Positions 374 through 60,511 of a stretch of DNA of 64,000 bases are shown here, one piece after another. The notes under the pieces are model-generated. The model saw only the letters and a program-made list of their open reading frames with translations, ran no database searches and had not been told where the DNA came from. The stretch's first letter is position 1. The number at the start of each line of letters is the position of its first letter. The position numbers and the translations under genes were made by a program. This DNA is from Agelas oroides (taxonomy: Eukaryota > Porifera > Demospongiae > Agelasida > Agelasidae), in the NCBI GenBank assembly GCA_949130485.1, contig OX422184.1, positions 5,870,655 to 5,934,654 of the forward strand, read 5' to 3'.

Positions 374-583
374 TTACGCAGATGAGGGTTCAGTAGGCAG
401 TAACACAACCTTCGTCACAGGTCTTCGATACGTGCCTGTGGAGGTTTTGATGGAAACAACACGTACCAGTCCATCATTTCCGGTGTGAGCTGTCACCACT
501 CTAGCCAGAGGCCACTTTGCTGGAATCACGTTGTCTTCTCGGAGAATGACAATGTCACCAACACTCAAGTTCCTCGATGCCAC
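374..583 (-). pseudogene. BEL/Pao integrase C-terminal segment (frame-shifted)
   Basis: This reading frame gives NLSVGDIVILREDN followed by KWPLARVV, the C-terminal domain that follows the catalytic core in BEL/Pao integrases (the DUF5641-type region). It continues the 565-2172 frame after a small indel near 575. Its apparent start is a GTG inside the coding region and not a real initiation codon. It ends 107 bp before the 3' LTR. Confidence 0.8.
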
Positions 584-2172
584 TTAGAAGCACGCTTGAA
601 GGTGTCCAAATAGTCAGCTGACCAGCGTTGCCAGAGGTGACGAACGAGTGCTTGACACAAGTGCCAACGGGAGAGGATCGAGATGGACCGATATGCAAGT
701 GCTGGATCTGGCAGTGCTTCCAGCGGTCTTCCTACAAGGAAGTGACCAGGTGTCAGGGCCTCTACTCCATCGTCAGCAAGAGGGAGAGCGACAAGAGGCC
801 GGCTGTTGAGGCAAGCCTCAATTTGTGATAGCACCGTTGTCAGTTCTTCGAACGTCAGCTTTACATTGCCGACAACTCGTCGTAGATGTGACTTGAAGCT
901 TTTCACAGCGGCCTCCCATAACCCACCAAAATGTGGTGCATGCTCTGGGATGAATCGCCATTGTATATTTTGGACAGAACAAAATGAGGAGATTTCTCCT
1001 TGTGCTTTCTGAGATTCAAGAAACTTCACCAGTTCCTTGATCTCACTAGTAGCACCAACAAAGTTTGTGCCATGATCGCTCCAAATAAGGGTAGGCTTTC
1101 CTCGCCGGGAAATGAATCGTCGCAGGCATGCGATAAATGCGTCTGTGCTCAGATCAGATACAAGTTCCAAATGCACTGCTCGAACAGACAATGAAACAAA
1201 CACGCACACATATGACTTGACAATGACTGGCTTATGCGTGGACCCTAGCTTCAGCTGCAGTGGTCCGGCATAGTCCACACCAACTCTGTCAAAGACGAGA
1301 TCTGGCGTGACACGTTCAGTGGGGACTTGTCCCATCATCTGACTTTGTGGCTTGGCAGCATGGCGACGACACGTCACACAGGCACAGGTAACAGACCGGA
1401 TGATCTTGCGCCCACCTATGATGTGGAAGCGACGGTTCAATGAGCATGAGAGGAGAGTAGGACCTGCGTGAAGCAGTCTGAGATGCTCAGAGAAGATAAT
1501 GAGACGAGTGATGGGGTGCCCACCATACAAAATGATGGGGTGTTGAATGGAATACGCTCTGTTGGAATTCTGTTCTCGTCCACCAACACGGATGAGATCC
1601 TCTGCATCTAGGAAGAGGTGAAGAGGGATCAGGGGACTTGATTTGTGGAGTTGACGGCCTTTCTTGATGTATGCTATCTCTTTCATGAAATGTTGTCTTT
1701 GGGCGAGCACCAACCAGTAGATCTCTGCTTTCTGTAACTCCAGAACACTCAAGTGTGACTCAGAGCTTGCCTTTGTACGACAATTCTTGATGAATCGCAT
1801 GATCCAAGCAGTAACTCTCTTCAAGTGAGAAAAAGTGGAGAATCGATCAAATGGAATGAGTGGCTCCACTGATTGTACTAGCGCTACAAGAGAGACTTCC
1901 CTCTCCTCCTCTGGAACTAATACTGCTTCAGGAACTTGAGATTGAGCAAGCCAGTGCGAGGAAGGGAGCTTGAGCCAATCAGGGCCCTCCCACCAGAGGT
2001 TGTGGTCAATGAGCTCAGATGGAAATAAACCCCTGGAAGCACAATCTGCCGGGTTGTCCACACCATTCACATGACGCCAGTGTTCAGGTCCAAGGAGTTC
2101 CACAATGTTGGAGACCCTATTGCCAACGTATGTCTTGAAGCGCTTTGGACTTCCCACAAGCCAACATAGCAC
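565..2172 (-). pseudogene. BEL/Pao pol: end of RNase H plus integrase
   Basis: This 535-residue frame starts inside the RNase H/connection region. It carries an HHCC zinc-binding domain (two His in SEHLRLLHAG, then CACVTC) and a DDE integrase core with Asp in GVDYAGP (about residue 299), Asp in SDHGTNF (about 365) and Glu in FGGLWEAAVKSF (about 420). That is the catalytic triad for strand transfer of retrotransposon DNA. The frame stops early near 575, where the C-terminal domain continues in another frame. The upstream join to RT is also broken: coding similarity continues to about 2350 in a frame different from the RT frame. All catalytic residues I can see are present. Confidence 0.88.
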
Positions 2173-2204
2173 AATAGTGCTGTCAGTCCATGCGTAGGAC
2201 CGGT

Positions 2205-3263
2205 TCAGGGGTATGTCAAGAACGAGTCGTACATGATGTAGAAGCTGAGCAAGAAGCTGAGCTCCACATAGCTCCAGACGCGGGATGGTGAGCCTTTTGA
2301 TAGGCGCGACCTTAGTCTTTGACGAGACATGTGCAAATTGTGTACTGCCATTTTCGCGACATCTGAGATCAGGAAACGTTTCGTGACAATATCAATAGGA
2401 GGGAGTTCTGCGACTTTGAGACGGAAGTGATCCATCACTGTGTTCCACTCTACTCCAAGGGTCTTGGTGTATCCATCATCGTCAGGCAGCGTACAGAGGG
2501 ATTGAGTGCCCTTGAGCTCCTCTGGTATGAGCTCCAATACAGCAGGGCTGCTGCAATTCCACTTTCGCAAAGTGAAGCCACCACGAGCAAATAGTTCCTG
2601 GAGCTGACGCTGTAGGGAGATTGCTCCCTCAATGGAGTCTGTGCCAACCAGACCATCATCCACATAAAAGGACTCATTGACGGCTTTTGCAGCAGCGGGG
2701 AATTCAAGGGAGAAGTCAGCCGCATTCTGTTTGATAGCCATGTTAGCCGCAAACGAGGAGGCAGCAACACCAAATGTGACTCGTGTCATACGATAATCAC
2801 GGAGTGGTTCAGATGCATCTCTTCTCCACACAAATCTGTGAAGATCCTTGTCAGACTCCTCCAAGAGAACCATCCGGTACATGCGACTGACATCCGTGGT
2901 GAGGGCGATGCGGTTCAGACGAAAACGGATCAATACATCCACAAGGGAAGAGTGGACAGTAGGACCAACCAGTAACTTGTCGTTGAGAGAGATGCCAGAT
3001 GAGGAGGGTGCCGATGCATCGAATACTGCACGTACTTTGGTTGTGTTGCTTGATTCCTTGTAAACAGCATGCATGGGTAAATAGAATACTTCCGATGTTG
3101 GCTTCTCGAGCTCGTCTGCAGGTACCAATTCCGCATGGTCCTTCTCGAAGTATTCCTCCATCACCAAGTGGAAGTCATCATATGCTCCTCTGGAACGCAA
3201 AGCTCTTTCCAGAGACTTGTGTCTTCTCACTGCCTGCAAGCGAGATTCACCAAGAGGCTTCAT
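2205..3263 (-). pseudogene. BEL/Pao reverse transcriptase domain (truncated)
   Basis: This 352-residue frame has a typical BEL/Pao RT: LTTDVSRMYRMV in the palm and FYVDDGLVG, the catalytic YVDD box at about 2656-2667 (residue about 200). The first residue is not a true start: the frame is the continuation of gag-protease, separated by a frame break at the G run 3281-3284. After VAKM (near 2350) the normal connection domain is absent and the sequence jumps to the end of the RNase H region in another frame. I infer an internal deletion of a few hundred bases, because BEL elements normally encode well over 100 residues here. Confidence 0.88.
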
Positions 3264-5548
3264 CTGAGGTTTCTTAGGCAGGGGACAATGAAACGACCAT
3301 CGCTAGCACGGGAATGGTGCTTCTGGAATTGTTCTACAACGGACCGTTCCTCAGGGGATAGACTGGAGTATTCAGAGGGTTGTTCCTCAATCTCCCAAAA
3401 CTTGCGCAACAGATCATCACCAACGTTAATGGTAGTGTGGTGTGTGAGGAGTGACAAGTGAGAGAAATGCATGCTAGTCTCACCAGCAAGAACCCAGCCG
3501 AAGTCAGTCTCAAACGCTGATGGTGAGCCAGGCATCCCAGACCGCCGGCCCTGATGCACAACCTCAGAGAATACTTCCACGCCCAGGAGTAGATCAATCT
3601 TGCCTGGTTGACCAAAATCTGGATCTGCAAGTGCGAGATCTGCCAGGTGGCTCCACTCAGTTTTGAACGGAACAGGTTGACTGGGTAGATCACACGTCAC
3701 TCGGGGAACGATGACTGCATTCACATTGATCTCCTTGGTGGATTCCTGCACGGGAGAAACAACAAGGTTAGTGAAAGACTGACTATGAGAGTCATGTGAG
3801 AGACCAGCAACACCATGTATCTTGGCATCTTGATGAAATCGTGGGAGACGTAGAGCCTGAGCCAGACACTCCGAAACAAATGAGATGGAGGATGCAGAGT
3901 CCAGGAGAGCTCGTGACTCAATGGAGGAACCATCGGGCCCTCGCGACACTACACGACAGGTCATGAGTAGAGAACCAGGAGTGGTCTCAGGACTGGCGTT
4001 GGACGTCAAATTCACACTCGGAGCAGGGGAAGGGGGAGTGTCATTACTCTGGTCGACGTGCAGAAGGGTGTGATGTGATTTTTGACACTTGCGACAATGG
4101 TTGCTAGATCGACACTGCTTCACAAAATGTCCAGGACGTAGACAGTTGACACAAAGGTCGTTGGACTTCACGGCAGACATCCTCTTTTCATGTGTGAGAG
4201 TCTTGAACTGTGGACAAGCGAAGAGAGAGTGCTTCTCTGTCTTGCACAGACTACAACTGGGGAATGAGGGATCAGAGGTGTTAGCCGTAAATGAAGTGAT
4301 CTGCCTGTTCACTCCTTTCTTCAAACGGTCATCACAATGAGGCAGGTTCTTCTTCACATCATTGGTGGAAGCCTCAGATGCTTGCGCTCGAAGGTTCAAA
4401 AACTCAAGCAGCTTCCCATAGTGAGGGTAGCCAGGGAGGTCTTGGCTGAACTTTTGCCATTCGAAATTGGTACTGGCATCCAACTTCAACTCTAATATGG
4501 AGGTGATGAAGGGGCCGGAGGGCTCACAATCCATGGCCTTGAGGGCCCGCAAGTGTTGTTGAACTGTGTCATGAAGTCGATGAATTTCACGACCAGTACC
4601 TTCCTTGAGGCTTGGAGTCTCAAGAATCATTCGTACATGTGACTGGTGGATGAGCCGCGGTCGATCGTATCGTGCCTTTAGGGTCTCGATGGCCTCAGCG
4701 TAGAATTCGCCAGATATTGACAGTCCTTCAATGACCCCCTTGGCAGACCCATCCTTGAGAGAGTTGCGCAAGTACGCAAGCTTCTCCACATCAGACAGGG
4801 CACTCCGACTGTGTATGACAACATCGAACTGCTGCCAAAATGATATCCAGTTGGTTAGTTTCCTATCAAAAGTGGGTGTCTCCAGCTTGGGCAATTTGAC
4901 ACCCTTGCTGTCTGAGGCTGTAGGGGGAGTAGCGGACGTTGGGAGATCAGGCACAACCAACCTCTTGATCATCAGGTCACACTCAAAAATCAGTGACTCA
5001 AGTGTACTTTGTACAGTATAGAGGTCATCAGAGTCCTCCAGATTCATGGTCAGAAGGATAGCAGACAGTTCCTTCAGATCAGTTTTGTGGGCTTGAAGCC
5101 ACTCCTCGTAATGGCGAATGATGCAAATGTCTGAAGTGCTGGTCAGATGTATGACAGCTTCACGAATAGCATTCACAGCCTTCTCCAACTGTGACTGTTG
5201 ACGAGAGAGAACCTTGCGTTTGGGTGAATTAGCAGAAGATGAACTGATTGACAGGAGTTGCCGGATACGCATGTTGGCATCGTCAATTATGTCATCATGG
5301 GCGTCCAGTTCATTCTGTGCACTCTCCAGGCCACTCTCATCTGTCTCATCGATGAGGTCAAGGAGCTGGTCATGATGATTCCTGAATGCTTGGTCAAGTT
5401 CACCAAGTCTTTTGGCCATGTCCTGCGCAAGGTCAAAGGTCGAGGGTTCAGCTGCTTTGCCTTCTAAGGCAGCTAGGCGGTTGAGTAGTCTAGTTATGGA
5501 GCTGCGAACGGTGCCCCTTCTCTTTCTGACACCCGAAGCGGTAGACAT
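3260..5548 (-). CDS. BEL/Pao Gag and aspartic protease polyprotein region
   Basis: This is a 762-residue frame from the first ATG after the primer site. Residues about 215-360 contain KLPKLETPTFDRKLTNWISF, the DUF1759-type gag domain of BEL/Pao elements. Cys/His-rich zinc knuckles follow at about 430-492 (CSLC, CVNC, CRKC). The protease motif LLDSASSISFV at about residue 548 has DSA in place of the usual D-S/T-G, common in this clade (DUF1758). Coiled-coil-like acidic sequence fills the first 200 residues. Gag would package element RNA and the protease would process the polyprotein. In intact BEL elements this runs straight into RT; here it stops at 3260 after a shift in a G4 run. A programmed shift is possible but unusual for the group. 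Confidence 0.87.
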   Translation of the reverse strand: MSTASGVRKRRGTVRSSITRLLNRLAALEGKAAEPSTFDLAQDMAKRLGELDQAFRNHHDQLLDLIDETDESGLESAQNELDAHDDIIDDANMRIRQLLSISSSSANSPKRKVLSRQQSQLEKAVNAIREAVIHLTSTSDICIIRHYEEWLQAHKTDLKELSAILLTMNLEDSDDLYTVQSTLESLIFECDLMIKRLVVPDLPTSATPPTASDSKGVKLPKLETPTFDRKLTNWISFWQQFDVVIHSRSALSDVEKLAYLRNSLKDGSAKGVIEGLSISGEFYAEAIETLKARYDRPRLIHQSHVRMILETPSLKEGTGREIHRLHDTVQQHLRALKAMDCEPSGPFITSILELKLDASTNFEWQKFSQDLPGYPHYGKLLEFLNLRAQASEASTNDVKKNLPHCDDRLKKGVNRQITSFTANTSDPSFPSCSLCKTEKHSLFACPQFKTLTHEKRMSAVKSNDLCVNCLRPGHFVKQCRSSNHCRKCQKSHHTLLHVDQSNDTPPSPAPSVNLTSNASPETTPGSLLMTCRVVSRGPDGSSIESRALLDSASSISFVSECLAQALRLPRFHQDAKIHGVAGLSHDSHSQSFTNLVVSPVQESTKEINVNAVIVPRVTCDLPSQPVPFKTEWSHLADLALADPDFGQPGKIDLLLGVEVFSEVVHQGRRSGMPGSPSAFETDFGWVLAGETSMHFSHLSLLTHHTTINVGDDLLRKFWEIEEQPSEYSSLSPEERSVVEQFQKHHSRASDGRFIVPCLRNLR

Positions 5549-22265: not shown

Positions 22266-24933
22266 AGGCAAGGGGCCCTAATTCGGGACACCTTTAGAAT
22301 TTTAGCTTACTAACAAATAGCACTTCGCTACCTAGGGAGTACAATAGATATGTACGTATACCTTGGGCATCGTACTTTTTGCATTCCAAGTTTGAAGTTC
22401 TATTTCCAAAGAATGTGACGACATTGTTCACGTGATTCAGGTATTCCAATTTCAGGGGGTGGTGCCTAATTCGGGACACTTCCATAAACTTGAAAATTCC
22501 GCACCATACAGCGTGTTCTGAAGTCTGAAAGGTTGAAAACAATTTCTAGGACTCATTAACAGTTTGGAGACACACACTTGAGTATAAAAGATGGAAGAAA
22601 GAATGGTACAAAAGTGTATGCTTGCTGGAGTTTTAAGTTTGGAGTTTTTTAGGGGTAAGTATATGAAAGATTATTGGATAGATGCTAGAAAGATGAGAGA
22701 TCCAGTCATGAAAGTATGTAAGAGCCAGTGATAGACGACAATTATGCTCAGGCTGTTGGAAAGGTTATGATAGTGCATGAAAGTTTACTGATCTTCATCT
22801 TCATCTTTGCAGGCTGGACAGATCCACCTCAATTTTGGATCAGGCATATCAAGGTGACCTACACACCAGTAGTGGTACCATCGCCAACAACCCCTTTCAT
22901 CACATCCAATCCACCCTTCCTGTGCCTCTTCGTCATCATCATCGTAGTTACCTCTACATACCTGACATATGTTCTCATCCTCATCTTCTCCACATTTTCT
23001 TCCTGTCTGCCTTCCTCTTGTCTGCCTTCCTCTTGCCTGCCTTCCTCTTCCCTGACCTTTGCCTCTTGCTTTCCTGCGAGTTGAACCTTTCTTGACTGCC
23101 CGCTCCTTTTTCTCCTCCTCTTGCTTTCGGACCCGTTCAATGACCTCCTCTTCGGTCAATGCCTCTCCATAGTGTGATGGCTTTGTCCGACCCTTTGCTC
23201 CTGAAGATACTGTAACAGTACCTTGCGAAATGAACAAGTTCCCAAAGAACTGAGCAATGTGGATTGTGACAGGAGTTGGTGGTTGTTGCTGTAAGTGCAT
23301 TGCAGACTGAGGAGGAGACTGTGATTGCTGGGACTGAGTTGATTGCGTCTGTGAAGGAGTTTGAAATGGAATGGATACCTTGAGTTTTGATGCTGGAATG
23401 GCATCTCGAGAGAGAGGGTGAAGTACAGCACCTCTAAAACCACCTATCAGGTGCTCTGGAAGTAGCACACGGGGCCACATTTTTGCAACAAGTGACGGAA
23501 AAATATGTTTATCAACTTTTGCTGCCATGGTCTCCAGCTTGAACTCCTTCAGAATCTGAGACCACACCAGCTTTAGAGGGCCAAAGACACCAACATCGAG
23601 AGGCTGCAACAGGTGGGTTGTATGTGGAGGGAAAGTGTAGAGGACAATTCCTTGGTCTCGTGCTTCCTCCACCAGACCAAGAGTAGTGTGTGATTGGTGG
23701 CTGTCAAGAAATAGCACAACAGGCCCAGTACGTCGCATGCCCTCCACAGCGGGGAGGAAAACTTTGCGGAACCATTCAAAGAAGTTGGCACCCTCCATCC
23801 ACCCTGAGTCTGACATTGAGTACCGAGTATCCTGGGGGCCACCTTCAGTGTGAGCAGTCATCAAGTTGTTTCCTTTGTACACAATGTATGGGGGTAGCTT
23901 CTCACCAATTGCTGACCCACATGCCAGGATTGTTATATTCTCTCTCCCCCTGTCTCATGCACATTTTTCTCTCCTCTTCTTGTTAAAATCTTCCGGGATG
24001 CAACCGCTGTGCATATCCCAGTCTCATCACAGTTCCATAGGCGTCTCCCTCTTTCACTGTAAGACATTTTGTTCAGCCTCAGCTTCTCAAATAGCTCCTA
24101 TATATGGGAATTAGTCAATGTTTGATTATCTTGCATTTTGTTTTGTTTTGCTCATGCATTGTATGTCTTGTACATTCTGCAATTCACACTATGTATCACA
24201 GTTTGTTGCGTATGTATGTGTTTGCATTGGTTATTGTGTATGTATAATGTACCTGCAGGTTGTGAAAGTAAATGTCCATCACTTGAGGAGTAGATGCCTC
24301 ACCCCTGCTTGTTGGGAAATGCTGTGGTTTCCTTTCGGACAGTGATGGCCACCGGTTGAGGAACCCCCGCCACCACTTCTTCCCAGGGACTCCATCTTTG
24401 AAAGGGCTCTCTCTCCCTTGTGATTTGAGGTAGTCCCTAACTACCCTACCCACTATGATTTGGTCAACCCCAAACCCAGATTGAGCCAGCAATTGGCAAG
24501 AATGCACAATACCTCGTTCTTCCTCTTCACTTAGCACTGTAGGTCTACCTGCTCCTACCTTCATGTCTTCGTTTAAGACATGCCTATGCACGGTGTAGGC
24601 CATATCGCTCTCCTGTCACCCTCAGACACAAATGGTTTGTTTTGACTGCTTCCTGGGCTGCTGCTACCCTCTGTTGTCTGTCTTCTGTAGGCTTAGCTGC
24701 CATTGCACCGAACAGTAATTTGATTTTCGCGCGAAAATCCCTCCAGGTTACATAAGAGGCTTAATGATGACGTAATATCTACAAAATGGGCGTAGCTGGC
24801 ATACCGAAAATTGATGTGAAAGCTGCCGTCAAAGGTGCTCTGTGCGTGTGCTAAAAACTGTATGACTACAGCTAAGCGCGGCCTGGAAAAACAGCGAAAA
24901 GCTGTAAGTGTCCCGAATTAGGACCACTTACTT
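22266..24933 (-). mobile_element. pogo/Tigger-type DNA transposon with TA target sites
   Basis: Terminal inverted repeats of 26 bp (22266-22291 and 24908-24933; 22 of 26 match, core CCTAATTCGGGACAC) are flanked by TA on both sides (22264-22265 and 24934-24935), as in the Tc1/mariner/pogo superfamily. A further copy of the TIR core lies internally at about 22468-22483. The minus strand encodes a DDE transposase in two exons. Length 2668 bp is normal for an autonomous Tigger. Two frame breaks suggest this copy no longer makes full-length enzyme. Confidence 0.9.
22785..24711 (-). pseudogene. pogo/Tigger transposase with CENP-B-type HTH, DDE domain and C-terminal PHD finger
   Basis: Reading leftward, an ATG at 24709-24711 opens a psq-type helix-turn-helix start (about 40 codons). 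A small indel near 24590-24605 shifts into the CENP-B HTH part (VGAGRPTVLSEEEERGIVH). A 155-nt intron (24098-24252, GT..AG) follows. Exon 2 has the catalytic Asp residues in WNCDETG, VVLFLDSHQSH and LLQPLDVGVFGPLK. A frame break lies in the CTCTCT run near 23940-23946. After a Gln/Ser-rich and Arg/Lys-rich linker comes a PHD finger, C4HC3, ICQVC..GCDERGCWRWYHYWC..WICPAC, ending at TAA 22785-22787. PHD fingers bind histone H3 tails, so the fusion could direct insertion to chromatin marks (inference). Confidence 0.85.
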
Positions 24934-55251: not shown

Positions 55252-56506
55252 GTAAAGTAACCAAGGCCAAATACTGTGGAGACGCCTTTCTGGGCATCTG
55301 GTTTTCATGCTATTACATCATAGTGAAGGTCAAGTGCTAAGTACTACTGATCTGTGGGTTGATATGAAAGTAGGAACGCATGGTACAGCAAATCAATCAA
55401 AAGGCCACACGGTAGCAGTAGAAAGCCAGAGGCATTTCTTGACAAAGGGTTTTCACAAGAGAAATGCCTCTGACATGTTTCCAGTAGCTGCAATCTGCTG
55501 GGAAGTTGCTTATTAACCAGAGTTTACATATGATGAAACTTGATAGGTCCCTGTGGAGTTATTGGATGCCTGTTACCTTGGAAACGTAATGTGATGAAAC
55601 TTGATACTTATAGACTGTGTCGTCCTGGCGAATAGTGGGCTGTCGGGTTCGTAGCCTTTTATACTCACCAGACAAGCAGAGCTGGCATAAAGGCGGAGGC
55701 CGGGATAGGAGCTGGTCACGCCAGTCAGCAATCTGATAGGTGCAAAGGTTGCTTGTTGCAAACCTAGGCACACAGCTAGCACATGCACTATCTTTTCTTG
55801 TGCAAACTTTATGAAGTTGGTAACATCACATTGTCCAGGAGTTGGTACTCACCAGTTTACATCTGGTGTACAGACATTATCCAGACAAAACTTAGGACGC
55901 AATCACAGGCAGAAATAGTAATGGCAAGATAAGAAAAACAGTCAACTAGAAACGTGTTCACCTGGCTTGTTAACTATTTTAATTTTCTACGTTGTGCAAA
56001 CATCAACGTAATTATTACACTCCATAGTGTGTCTGAACTCAAGGAAAGATTGGCCAACTCCTGGACACAAAAGGAAATCCAAATGTGAAGGCAATAGTAC
56101 GTTGACTAAGAGCTACTAACAATGTGGTACACATCAAAGGATAATGGCAAAATCCCAGCCTCTCCTTGTTTCCAAACATGATGGAGTTGATCCATAACTG
56201 TGACACCTTTACATGTCTATTACTTGGTAGTACACTTGTGGTACGCTACATACCAAGTTGCTTTCACAATCATAGCACTGGTTTACTGGTATACCAAGTT
56301 CCATCACTTCCTTAGACCCTAACACCTGCAAGAATTTCGAAGTATTAGAAGTAAACAAACGATCTCGTTAAAGGACCACTGATATCAGACATGATATTGC
56401 TAATTGTTCAGAATCGAAAGTGCTGTTCATGATTACCAAGCTGTTAGGTCTCCCTGCATTAGAGAAGGCAAAGCACAAGAACATTCTAAAACAGCAAATC
56501 TTATTA

Positions 56507-57149
56507 CCGTAGTGTCCCGCAAATAGGCCCCCCCTCGCGCATAAGCCCCCCCTGCATTTTTAGCGCAAAGTCTTGCAGAGGTATTTTTATCCCGCGCATA
56601 AGCCCCCCCTCGTCGAAACTCCTACACAGTCAGGTTCAAGGTATCCGTGGTGGAATGGCAGCGCAAGAACAAAGCCAGCATCCACAGAACCGCTCAACTC
56701 CATTGCAAGTTTATTCAAGCCACTCGGCTTTCTACTGTTAAATTGTCTACCGCGAACGTGGATCGCCTGCAGCAACGATGGACACACCAGCTACTTCGCG
56801 GAAGCGCCCTGCTTCCTCGTCCATCAACGCTAAAGCTCGCCATCTTACCGCTAACGTCGGGAGCATCTCTCCGCCTCGCGCGTTCTACGCTCGGCGACGC
56901 CTCGCGCTTCGGGCTCGTCCCCCCCCCCCCCCCCTCGTTGAAACTCCTATACAGTCAGGTTCAAGGTCTCTGTGGTGGAATAGCAGCGCATGAAGAACGA
57001 AGCCAGCATCCACAGAACTGCTCATATTTCTCGATCGAGGGAGGGCGTAATCACGAGAGAAAATGTCGCATCCCGCGTATAAGCCCCCCCTGCGCTTTGT
57101 ACTAAGGCTAAGGTTGCAAAAGGGGGGGCGTATTTGCGGGACACTACAG
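56507..57149. mobile_element. 643-bp TIR element with CCGTAGTGTCCCG ends
   Basis: Ends CCGTAGTGTCCCGCAAATA (left) and CTGTAGTGTCCCGCAAATA (right, inverted) are flanked by TA (56505-56506 and 57150-57151). Subterminal blocks carry runs of seven or more C or G with ATAAGCCCCCC. The interior contains a direct duplication (56614-56696 and about 56938-57024) and no convincing ORF. Its ends match the HIRAN-bearing element at 59112-59883. Confidence 0.8.
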
Positions 57150-57452
57150 TACTATAATAAATGTTGATCTACAGAGGTTCATGTACCTCAGTATAGCAAT
57201 GCACTGAAATTAACTCTGATGTCCCTGTAGACTGCCTCAGGTTTCGTTGCACTATGTTTGCACCAGATCGCACTTCTGATCTGCGATCTGATCATGTGAC
57301 TGTTAGTTTTATTATAGCTTGTTGAAGCTGAAACTGTTCAGCATATTTTTTAGCATCAGCAGAAACGTAGATTTGCTGCTACCAAGAGTTTATTACAGTA
57401 TATATGAGTATGCAACTCCCATATGGTTTCTATACCTGCCATCTGGAGAATA

Positions 57453-57793: not shown

Positions 57794-59111
57794 TATGCTA
57801 GTCTGTCAGCAGTGCTAAGCTTTGAAACAGCAGCAAAGAAGCAGGCTTTTGCTGGAGTGTTCACTCAGCTATAAACATTAATTTTAAGGAATGATTGGGC
57901 ATAGTGCAGGCTCACCTCAGGGACCCGCTGCAACGGTGCTGGGACGCACGTGACTACAGCGTCCCCTTCTAATGCATTTAAGTTGGGGGGTGACTGAGAC
58001 CCCCTTAATTTAGGGTCACAAAGCCAACCAAAAGGGAAGACTGGGTACGTTAGCTTACAATGACCCTCCCAAAACTGTGTATTGAAGTTATGAGATGTGA
58101 ATACATGTAGATGAACTAGAGCACACTTGTATGGCACCAGTACATGCCCAACAACTACACAGAGACGACACTAGGACAGAACACGGTTACTTGTATCATG
58201 ATTGTGGGTGTATCAAAGAAGCCACCACAGAGTACAATATTCATGTACCCTAGTTGTTGCCTTTGAAGCAAGGGTACATCCATGTACCCTAGGGTACAGC
58301 GAGACAAAACTAATTTTCACAAGAAAAACAGTTTCGCAAGGAAAACATTTTCCTGCAAGTAGTATACAAAGAACTGCATGTTGTACCACTGTACAAAAAT
58401 ACATGTATTACATGCACCTAAAACTTCTTAAGATCATCCGGAGTAAGTCCAAAATTAAACAAGTTTGAACGGTGGAACTTTCAGATGTCATAACCGTGCC
58501 AGTGTAGACATTGACGGAACTCCCACTTGAAGTTTAACCTTTAACCCCGACGCGCATGTGCAGAAATCGATCGCGTGGTTACGAGAGAAGCTAATAAACA
58601 ATGGCGATTTTGTGAAGTGTTGATTCATTGCGTTATATCTTGTAAAATAGCTGAGTTCAGGCAATGATAGTTAGGCTTAGCTTTACTCCGAATGTAGTCA
58701 GAAGACCTACTAGTAAAGTCCAAAGAAGCTACAACGGTGGAAACGTAGGTACCCGCTGTGAACCTGAAAATGACCGATAATACACGGCAAAAGTTGGCAG
58801 ACAGTTTCAGCGAAGGTACGTTTCAACTGTCTCTGACACGAATAAACAAGTAGCGTGTGGATATAAGCTGTACTGTGGCTAACTACTATCGGCAGGCAAA
58901 CTTCAAACGCGATTTTGAGGGGAAGTCCCTATAGGACACCACAGCTAATTATGCTTTGATTGACTTCCTGTTACACGTAATAACTAACTCCAAGTCCAAA
59001 AAGGCGCTGCAATCACGCTAAATAGTGGAAGCGAAGTGCGGGCGCATTTGGCTGCTATCGGGTGTAACGGACAAGAAATTTTACGGGCGCATTTGGCCGC
59101 TATCGGGTGTA

Positions 59112-59883
59112 CCGTAGTGTCCCGCTAATACGCCCCCTTCGAAAATACGACCCCCCCCTCTTTTCCGCCAAAGTTCCTGCACAGGGTAGTTTGACTCGTT
59201 ATAACGCCCCCCGGTGAGCGTCTTCTGGAACATCAAAACTACACGTGCTTACTATACGTTGCAAGTGCGTTCAGTAAGACTATAGTAGTCGGTGAATCTT
59301 TTGTAAGTTTTGTGGCTTTTAGAAAAGCCGGTTAGATGTTCCAAGTTTTAAGCTGCTAGTTTAGCAAACAGGTTTGTCAGTCTGTCAAGGTGTTTTTGTT
59401 TCCCTCTGAAGATGTACACGCACGGAACCACGAGTCCTTTCCCATCAACTTCAGAACGTCTTCTGTCACCATTGACGATGCAAGTCATCTCGCTGCCACT
59501 CTTGTGCAAGAAATACCAGCAGACTCTGGAAATTTCCCGTGGTACATGACCGACAGTGTTGCCGTTCTTGAGGACAGCTACAGCGAAGTCGTCGTGAATG
59601 TTATTGACCTCGCGTTGAACTGGCAGCTCTTCTCCGATGTAGGGAGACCACGCAGCTTTGTAAACGTGATGTCCGCGAACAGTACTCTCAATCCTGAAAG
59701 TCATCGCTATAGTTAGTTGGAAGTGTCCTAATTGCGTACATAGCACTTGCGTAAAATCTTTTGGGGGGGGGGGGGGGGGGGGGCTTATAGTTGAGACTAA
59801 TTGCATCCTCGAATATAAGCCCCCCCCACTTTAGGCGGGATGTAGTGTACAAAATGGGGGGGCGTATTAACGGGACACTACGG
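59112..59883. mobile_element. 772-bp TIR element carrying a HIRAN-domain gene
   Basis: Terminal inverted repeats CCGTAGTGTCCCG(C/T)TAATACG continue into C/G-rich tracts and differ at one of the first 25 positions. TA target duplications lie at 59110-59111 and 59884-59885. The interior holds the 59348-59704 ORF on the minus strand and a 21-G run (59763-59783). No transposase is encoded, so movement would depend on a pogo/mariner-like enzyme acting in trans. Confidence 0.85.
59348..59704 (-). CDS. HIRAN-domain protein, about 118 residues
   Basis: The start chosen is the ATG at 59702-59704 (MTFRIESTVRGHHVYKAAW); the longer frame runs back through the poly-G tract and is unlikely. The protein is a single HIRAN-like module: opening strand ESTVRGHHVYK, then EELPVQREVNNIHDDFAVAV, GNTVGHVPREI and PCVYIFRG near the end, stop at 59348-59350. 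HIRAN domains, best known from the N-terminus of HLTF, bind 3' DNA ends. The ORF is unbroken in an otherwise mutated neighbourhood. It fills most of a small transposable element. A role in element mobility or in host DNA repair is inference. Confidence 0.7.
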   Translation of the reverse strand: MTFRIESTVRGHHVYKAAWSPYIGEELPVQREVNNIHDDFAVAVLKNGNTVGHVPREISRVCWYFLHKSGSEMTCIVNGDRRRSEVDGKGLVVPCVYIFRGKQKHLDRLTNLFAKLAA

Positions 59884-60013
59884 TAATGGGTTAATGATAG
59901 AAGAGCAAATGATGGAGCAAACGATAGAGCAAATGCAGAGCGCATGTCTCTAAACCCTACAGAGGAAGGGTGTGTGACTATCAGTTGAGAGTTAGTTGTC
60001 GTACTGTGAGGGA

Positions 60014-60511
60014 CTATTGCTGTTGAAATACTGATGTCAGCTGATACATTGCAGGCATCCCTATCCTCTCTTTCACCTGGCCGCTCATATATTCATAGTG
60101 TTTCGATGCTCTTATGCCCTGTACGATAGTCCTCTGCACAACCCCACTCCTGTATAGCCAAGTAGCTCCTGTCACTTTTAGGCTGTGGTTGCTTTTTCTC
60201 TCTATACCCACTTCTTCACGCATGTCTCGTACAAACCGATCCAATTTGTTCCATCCAATTGGGACATCAGTGAACCAAGGCTTCTTTGGATCAGCAGGAG
60301 TCTTTCTTAAAGGAGTGAAATAAAATGCACCTTTCCCCTTTGCACCCTCTGACATTTTACAAATCAAGCAAATATATGTGACAAGCCCGGCCAGCATCTG
60401 GACAGGGGTACTCTCTGACAGCTTTGTTTTCTCTACATAGATCGCCAACACCCCCTTGAAATGCCTTTGACCCATTCTCAATGTATCTCCAGTGGTTTTT
60501 GTTTCTGACAA
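60014..60511 (-). pseudogene. Crypton-like tyrosine recombinase (DUF3504-type) remnant
   Basis: A 165-residue frame has AFYFTPLRKTPADPKKPWFT, VPIGWNKLDRFVRDM and NHSLKVTGATWLYRSGV. These match the C-terminal recombinase domain of Cryptons and of host proteins derived from them (KIAA1958, ZMYM and QRICH1 type). The HxxR box reads HSLK, so the catalytic Arg is Lys, and the usual GH box before the final Tyr region is lost by a short deletion after IVQG. The first 60 residues are poorly conserved. It is probably a non-functional relic. Confidence 0.6.

Follow-up and report, generated by a model that had tools for sequence, protein, structure and literature searches.

The genome of the sponge Agelas oroides contains a 772-bp element that raises the question of whether a DNA transposon can have a HIRAN domain protein as its only gene. 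The element was recognized in a stretch of 64,000 nt on contig OX422184.1 (assembly GCA_949130485.1, positions 5,870,655 to 5,934,654), which we refer to as the window. HIRAN domains bind 3' DNA ends, and a first-pass annotation made from the letters of the window had suggested that a mobile HIRAN protein could protect, hold or repair the ends during transposition. From the comparisons described below we conclude that the element is very probably MITE-like and arose by internal deletion from a pogo transposon with two genes; HIRAN is a passenger in the short copies and likely a maintained accessory gene in the full-length elements.

Anatomy of the window element

The element carries a HIRAN frame between terminal inverted repeats (TIRs) of 26 bp and is bordered by TA on both sides (Table 1). 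Including TA, the inverted arms (59110–59137 and 59858–59885) comprise 28 nt and are 96% complementary; without TA they show a single mismatch at position 14, and the similarity stops after 26 bp. This agrees well with the first-pass annotation, which had described near-identical ends (one mismatch in 25 positions) and TA duplications; TA was present at both sides in 40 of 40 scored copies. The HIRAN assignment made there withstood comparison with the Pfam profile PF08797 (E 1.3e-7, 31.7 bits, gathering cut-off 24.7). The accompanying description of an intact HIRAN ORF filling the element held for the domain match but not for the rest, as the frame occupies 363 of the 772 bp on the minus strand, the 152-aa ORF as listed begins upstream of the ancestral HIRAN gene and the ancestral ATG is lost: it reads ATA in the window copy, where the first in-frame ATG is codon 3.

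Table 1. Features of the HIRAN element and its sibling (positions within the window)
Feature	Position	Strand	Evidence
Left TA target-site duplication copy	59110..59111	.	Sequence; TA within matched ends of 40/40 scored copies
Left terminal inverted repeat, 26 bp	59112..59137	+	Inverted-repeat comparison
Left-derived part (parent bases 1-610), 98.4% identical to L082	59110..59719	.	Comparison with parent
HIRAN coding remnant, 120 codons + stop	59348..59710	-	Pfam PF08797, other copies compared, translation
Ancestral HIRAN ATG site, now ATA (first in-frame ATG at 59702-59704)	59708..59710	-	Copy comparison, translation
Join of parent bases 610 and 2221 left by the deletion (ambiguous over 3 bases)	59717..59719	.	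Comparison with parent
Right-derived part (parent bases 2221-2379), 90% identical	59717..59885	.	Comparison with parent
G tract, 21 bases, length varies among copies	59763..59783	.	Sequence, copy comparison
Right terminal inverted repeat, 26 bp, one mismatch vs left	59858..59883	-	Inverted-repeat comparison
Right TA target-site duplication copy	59884..59885	.	Sequence
Sibling non-autonomous element, matching ends and TA borders, no HIRAN	56505..57151	.	End and parent comparison

In copies with a shorter G tract the right-derived part is up to 98% identical to the parent, and the lower value of the window copy is probably largely due to the length of this tract. The sibling element lies 2 kb from the HIRAN element and has one mismatch in its right 13-mer end. 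Its interior is unrelated, and ATAAGCCCCC motifs near both ends resemble, by eye, those of the HIRAN element. On the minus strand beside the HIRAN element (60014–60511) we observed weak matches to DUF3504 (E 2e-4) and to a phage-integrase-type tyrosine recombinase (E 0.004), both below the cut-offs; this is perhaps a Crypton-like remnant. Further away, three adjoining long frames (565–5548, minus strand) appear by eye to be gag, reverse transcriptase and integrase of a BEL/Pao-type retrotransposon.

A two-gene pogo transposon as parent

Genome-wide HIRAN matches (150 scored of 402 candidates) revealed two loci at which a HIRAN frame adjoins a long second frame. These are two complete parent copies of 2379 and 2377 bp on contigs C5 and C3, which have the same ends as the window element and differ from each other by 7 substitutions and two small indels. 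Both copies have TA at both ends, and their TIRs (CCGTAGTGTCCCG...) measure 26–28 bp. The two genes are arranged head to head with start codons 201 bp apart: HIRAN (120 aa) runs from base 601 to base 239 toward the left end, the transposase (445 aa) from base 803 toward the right end. The parental HIRAN scores 34.1 bits against PF08797 (cut-off 24.7). For the transposase we found DDE_1 (7.4e-29), HTH_Tnp_Tc5 (1e-12) and BrkDBD (1e-6) domains; CENP-B in the PDB is matched weakly (E 2.7e-4), and 36 residues separate the second and third D of a triad that was assigned by eye from motifs.

Elements of the pogo superfamily are described, in the excerpted text of Gao et al. 2020 (PMC7386202), as having DD29-56D spacing, a length of 1.2–5.2 kb, TIRs mostly of at most 40 bp and one or two ORFs encoding transposases. 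The parent falls within these ranges in spacing, element length and TIR length and combines a DNA-binding region with DDE_1; the TA duplication, judged from the borders alone, was found at both parental copies and in all 40 scored copies of the short element. The window element corresponds to parent bases 1–610 joined to 2221–2379, so that 1.6 kb with the whole transposase is gone and the deletion ends about 9 bp before the HIRAN start. The idea of a transposon with HIRAN as its only gene was thus not borne out, the element being a non-autonomous deletion derivative of a transposase-bearing parent.

Among the matches listed, an intact transposase of the parental family occurs in only two copies. 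A third copy, on contig C2 (83–95% identity), has its transposase deleted and its HIRAN frame intact. More distant relatives of the parental transposase reach up to 69% identity over short stretches, and in the 150 scored of the 402 HIRAN matches none was seen beside HIRAN. Other candidates for an autonomous parent were rejected: in L031 (2753 bp, same ends) no transposase was seen by eye in the listed ORFs of at least 80 aa and only the ends are common with the parent, and L083 and L084 turned out to be merely short copies.

Copies of the short element in the genome

We searched the genome (259 Mb, 141 contigs) for further copies of the short element. All 40 scored of 359 candidates align over the full 776 bases of the query, and the 39 copies other than that of the window are 96–98% identical to it. 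The exact 15-mer end TACCGTAGTGTCCCG was found 351 times in forward and 334 times in reverse orientation, which allows at most about 340 end pairs; a reversed control sequence occurred 0+0 times. The 30 best-matching copies (L001–L030) differ from their own majority sequence by 0.50% substitutions on average, which is a low estimate since these copies were the best matches to the window copy. This small divergence points to a recent burst of the short element and fits the recent origin assumed in the first-pass annotation.

A MITE is a short internal-deletion derivative of an autonomous element, moved in trans by the transposase of its partner. With its 772 bp, high copy number, lack of a transposase and ends in common with an autonomous parent, the window element has the properties of a MITE; unlike MITEs, it keeps a whole, decaying non-transposase gene of the parent. 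As ends and subterminal sequence are common with the parent, the short form was presumably mobilized in trans by the parental transposase.

Besides the join 610|2221 of the window element we observed short forms with deletion joins 623|2210 and 634|2267 (parent numbering), and the three joins end 9, 22 and 33 bp before the HIRAN start. A further short form, present at 8 loci, keeps about 58 bp upstream of HIRAN, and some joins cut into HIRAN itself (L091 at 545, L040 at 543). That several deletion types keep HIRAN was considered as a sign of selection and dismissed, as one join may be a trimmed version of another, HIRAN is itself cut in some forms and the gene drifts neutrally.

Fate of HIRAN in the short copies

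For an analysis of the cargo we assembled 42 end pairs on contig C1 by hand from the first 100 listed exact ends, and all 42 pairs were examined. HIRAN sequence was found in 39 of them, the other three (L031, L038 and L045) holding other sequence. The full frame is preserved in 15 of the 39 HIRAN-bearing copies; 23 show length changes, only two of which are multiples of three (L078, L092), and one carries a stop alone.

Substitutions were analyzed in 67 of 72 aligned copies (L081, L082, L032, L035 and L037 were left out), with each coding change scored alone. Within the HIRAN gene we counted 85 singletons (66 non-synonymous, 19 synonymous) and 25 shared changes (17 non-synonymous, 2 leading to stops, 6 synonymous). 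Synonymous changes thus made up 25 of 110, compared to 29% expected from the mutation spectrum of the element itself. The resulting dN/dS of 1.4 has a 95% confidence interval of 0.9–2.3, by which values of 0.5 or less are rejected, and the number of singletons per site is 0.23 inside the gene versus 0.22 outside. A stop at codon 32 occurs in 4 short copies and a stop at codon 59 in 3 (the codon-59 change is common to 4 copies, the fourth of which, L095, reads through), and a 135-bp deletion in HIRAN is common to L036, L043 and L047. As the stops and the deletion are each found in several copies, broken HIRAN lineages still multiplied. HIRAN in the short copies is a passenger that drifts neutrally, and the window element is a MITE-type derivative of the ordinary kind whose passenger gene is dying. 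Selection for HIRAN as cargo of the short element was accordingly rejected, since the substitutions follow a neutral pattern and broken lineages multiplied. The first-pass annotation had itself named neutral decay of the frame in other copies as the observation that speaks against a working HIRAN component, and for the short copies this is what we observed.

A second pogo clade with HIRAN-Ulp1

A complete element of a second pogo clade (L107 with L111) was found at C3:1092851-1095830. It is 2980 bp long, has perfect TIRs (TACCGTATAGCTAGAAAGTTTCGCGG...) and contains two convergent frames, one for HIRAN-Ulp1 (315 aa) and one for a pogo transposase (493 aa). The transposase of this clade has DDE_1. 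The Ulp1 part of the HIRAN-Ulp1 frame scores 18.4 bits against Peptidase_C48, and that of the related locus L106 19.6 bits, both just under the cut-off of 20.7.

We examined how often the two genes occur together, using all 136 transposase rows and 97 of 134 HIRAN-Ulp1 rows (the 37 rows of the window family were left out); the rows came from 140 scored of 204 candidates for the transposase and 126 of 1323 for HIRAN-Ulp1. Among the matches listed, 17 of 66 clusters containing the HIRAN part lie within 5 kb of a clade transposase where 0.25 are expected, all 17 in convergent orientation, and the remaining 49 have no clade transposase within this distance. When Ulp1-only matches are included, 21 of 84 clusters are near a clade transposase among the matches listed, again all convergent (0.31 expected); in 4 of these 21 pairs the match is confined to the Ulp1 part. 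Some of the pairs may derive from each other by copying, as C2:12.57 and C2:13.30 Mb look like a duplication. In a smaller test of 14 HIRAN loci outside the window and L061 families, 7 were within 6 kb of a clade transposase; none of the four L052/L053-type HIRAN loci was within 6 kb of one.

A copy on contig C23 and the complete element are 100% identical over a transposase stretch of 277 aa, and in the C23 copy only residues 224–315 of the partner (the Ulp1 end) were matched; this copy seems to have lost HIRAN. Short derivatives are found in this clade as well: of 35 exact ends, 27 lie within 3 kb of a HIRAN(-Ulp1) match, distributed over 18 loci, and L108 (817 bp) is a short derivative that keeps a piece of HIRAN. 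With HIRAN being the second gene both of the parental pogo element and of this older clade, the alternative of a one-time capture was not upheld. In the window-family parent HIRAN is divergent from the transposase and has no Ulp1 part, unlike the second clade, which suggests that its HIRAN was acquired separately or was rearranged.

Within the window a pogo-like transposase frame was found at 22785–23984 on the minus strand, of which 23532–23984 is 24% identical to the transposase of the HIRAN-Ulp1 clade. By eye, the tail of the ORF 22785–23882 is cysteine-rich and PHD-like.

HIRAN in other elements, its conservation and its likeness to HLTF

TA-bordered elements with other ends also carry HIRAN frames (L071, L074 and the L061 family), and L071 has a transposase fragment in addition. 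L061 and its kin (11 loci, one partial) are 1510-bp elements in which inverted repeats of 530 bp (TACAGTGGAACCAGC) surround a HIRAN exon that belongs to another type. In longer relatives there is a transposase frame of a different kind, which matches DDE_3 and HTH_33 only weakly; one of them, L105, shows a 619-aa transposase-like frame. At L106 (C1:23127000-23130600) a HIRAN-Ulp1 frame lies beside MULE and ALS2CR8-type frames on the same strand, and the opposite flank of the HIRAN-Ulp1 frame has a pogo transposase match at C1:23126165; the elements may be nested, or a MULE may share the HIRAN gene. At L065/L052 (C22:5504266-5510734) two oppositely oriented HIRAN matches, about 3 kb apart, enclose transposase-like frames; it looks as though HIRAN had been pulled into the terminal repeats. 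HIRAN relatives (37–51% over 34–52 residues) were also found at 5 loci on viral contigs.

In 21 pairwise comparisons of seven HIRAN genes with the G[HY]H.Y motif pS is saturated (0.72–0.86) and pN ranges from 0.18 to 0.46; for L052 versus L053, which belong to another HIRAN type, dN/dS is 0.13. Eight HIRAN sequences, two of them from the window family, share 18 invariant columns, and the transposon HIRANs have an invariant W and the G[HY]H.Y motif. HIRAN proteins of the different families have diverged under strong purifying selection. From saturated pS and low pN it follows that these genes were long kept functional, either in transposons or in a source feeding them; for the second clade the fixed convergent pairing favours maintenance inside transposons.

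By sequence, the HIRAN domains of HLTF in the PDB were matched (2mzn, 4xzf and others; E 2.1e-3 with a single sequence, 1.9e-4 with a profile), and R..NN..D and GH motifs are common to both. The transposon HIRAN differs in being stand-alone, in its invariant W and G[HY]H.Y motif and in two residues of the binding pocket. According to the accessible part of PMC4666394, the dinucleotide pocket of HLTF is bordered by the stacking tyrosines Y72 and Y93. In an alignment to human HLTF, from which the numbering is transferred, these are replaced by A and H, and the invariant W adjoins the residue aligned to the first tyrosine. Since both stacking tyrosines are absent, HLTF-like binding of 3' ends should not be assumed. 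An AlphaFold prediction of the window HIRAN alone (single sequence) reached a pLDDT of 36, too low to be of use.

Discussion

A deletion of 1.6 kb removed the transposase and the upstream region of HIRAN. The short form subsequently multiplied, and the parental transposase presumably recognized its ends in trans. Where the pogo element is full-length, HIRAN most likely is a maintained accessory gene, either by itself or as a fusion with an Ulp1-like protease, as judged from the recurrent fixed arrangement in the second clade and from protein conservation between families; in the parental lineage copies are too few to gauge selection on HIRAN, and the support for an accessory gene comes from the second clade. 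The C23 copy that lacks HIRAN next to an identical transposase slightly lowers our confidence in this explanation. The accessory protein may act at the excision site, its target being either DNA ends or repair proteins. In the excerpt available, PMC11237066 reports that HLTF disrupts Cas9-DNA post-cleavage complexes, a possible analogy.

That the short element is instead a self-standing HIRAN transposon, whose own HIRAN product holds or repairs its ends, is highly improbable: 15 of the 39 sampled C1 copies with HIRAN keep a complete frame and three different joins stop 9, 22 and 33 bp short of the HIRAN start, but dN/dS is about 1.4, stop-bearing and 135-bp-deleted lineages multiplied, the joins of L091 and L040 cut HIRAN, the window copy lost the ancestral ATG and a parent with transposase exists. 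We also regard it as unlikely that HIRAN is a fragment of a host gene, captured by chance in pogo elements and without function for them. The arrangement in the window family is opposite to that in the second clade, the window family is recent (0.5% from consensus in the 30 best-matching copies), and no HIRAN match was obtained for one copy of the second clade whose transposase stretch is identical, all of which would fit such a capture; it is at odds with 17 of 17 convergent pairs in a clade with saturated silent sites and a conserved HIRAN protein, and with the presence of HIRAN frames in TA-bordered elements whose ends differ (L061 family, L071, L074).

A different role for the same genes, in which HIRAN(-Ulp1) is not an end-binding cofactor but counteracts silencing or repair through SUMO or repair complexes, would agree with the Ulp1-like fusion in the second clade (18.4 and 19.6 bits, under the Peptidase_C48 cut-off) and with the replaced HLTF tyrosines; we consider it rather doubtful, because the window-family HIRAN has no protease domain and no target is known. 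Returning to HIRAN as an accessory gene of full-length pogo elements, we tentatively propose that the pogo transposons of this genome include two-gene systems, in which a transposase is accompanied by a long-conserved HIRAN or HIRAN-Ulp1 protein that might bind the DNA ends of the transposon or of the donor site, or edit SUMO marks on the repair machinery there, and thereby favour reintegration.

The window-family parent and the second-clade element resemble known pogo transposons (PMC7386202 and PMC7325037, as far as excerpted) in TA duplication, TIRs, lengths of 2.38 kb and 2.98 kb, DDE_1 and short deletion derivatives, and the window-family parent also in the BrkDBD/HTH_Tnp_Tc5 regions of its transposase; what sets them apart from described pogo elements is that the transposase is accompanied by a further gene for HIRAN or HIRAN-Ulp1. 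No report of HIRAN in pogo transposons, or of a HIRAN gene inside a TA/TIR transposon, was found in the open-access literature, as the first-pass annotation had supposed; an earlier record, for instance in Repbase, is possible. The word HIRAN is absent from Dupeyron et al. 2020 (PMC7325037) on pogo transposons, and by title and beginning of the abstract none of the papers retrieved on HIRAN with transposable elements describes such an element. The domain is mentioned, in the passages available, in a study of viruses of a stratified water basin (PMC7785012) and in a paper on plant TDP1 (PMC10137840). An Ulp1/C48 protease is carried by the eukaryotic DNA transposon Ginger (PMC2836005, in part); our second clade likewise has an Ulp1-like domain in a DNA transposon and differs in that it is fused to HIRAN in a separate gene beside a pogo transposase.

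Ulp1/C48 proteases are carried by other eukaryotic DNA transposons too, and eukaryotic cut-and-paste transposons are usually thought to need little beyond their transposase and host repair. If the proposed two-gene systems exist, this would be, to our knowledge, the first HIRAN protein serving a cut-and-paste transposon, and a conserved HIRAN(-Ulp1) partner would represent an element-encoded handle on the processing of excised ends and donor breaks. A MITE burst can moreover scatter HIRAN-like frames through a genome, and annotation could mistake them for a host gene family.
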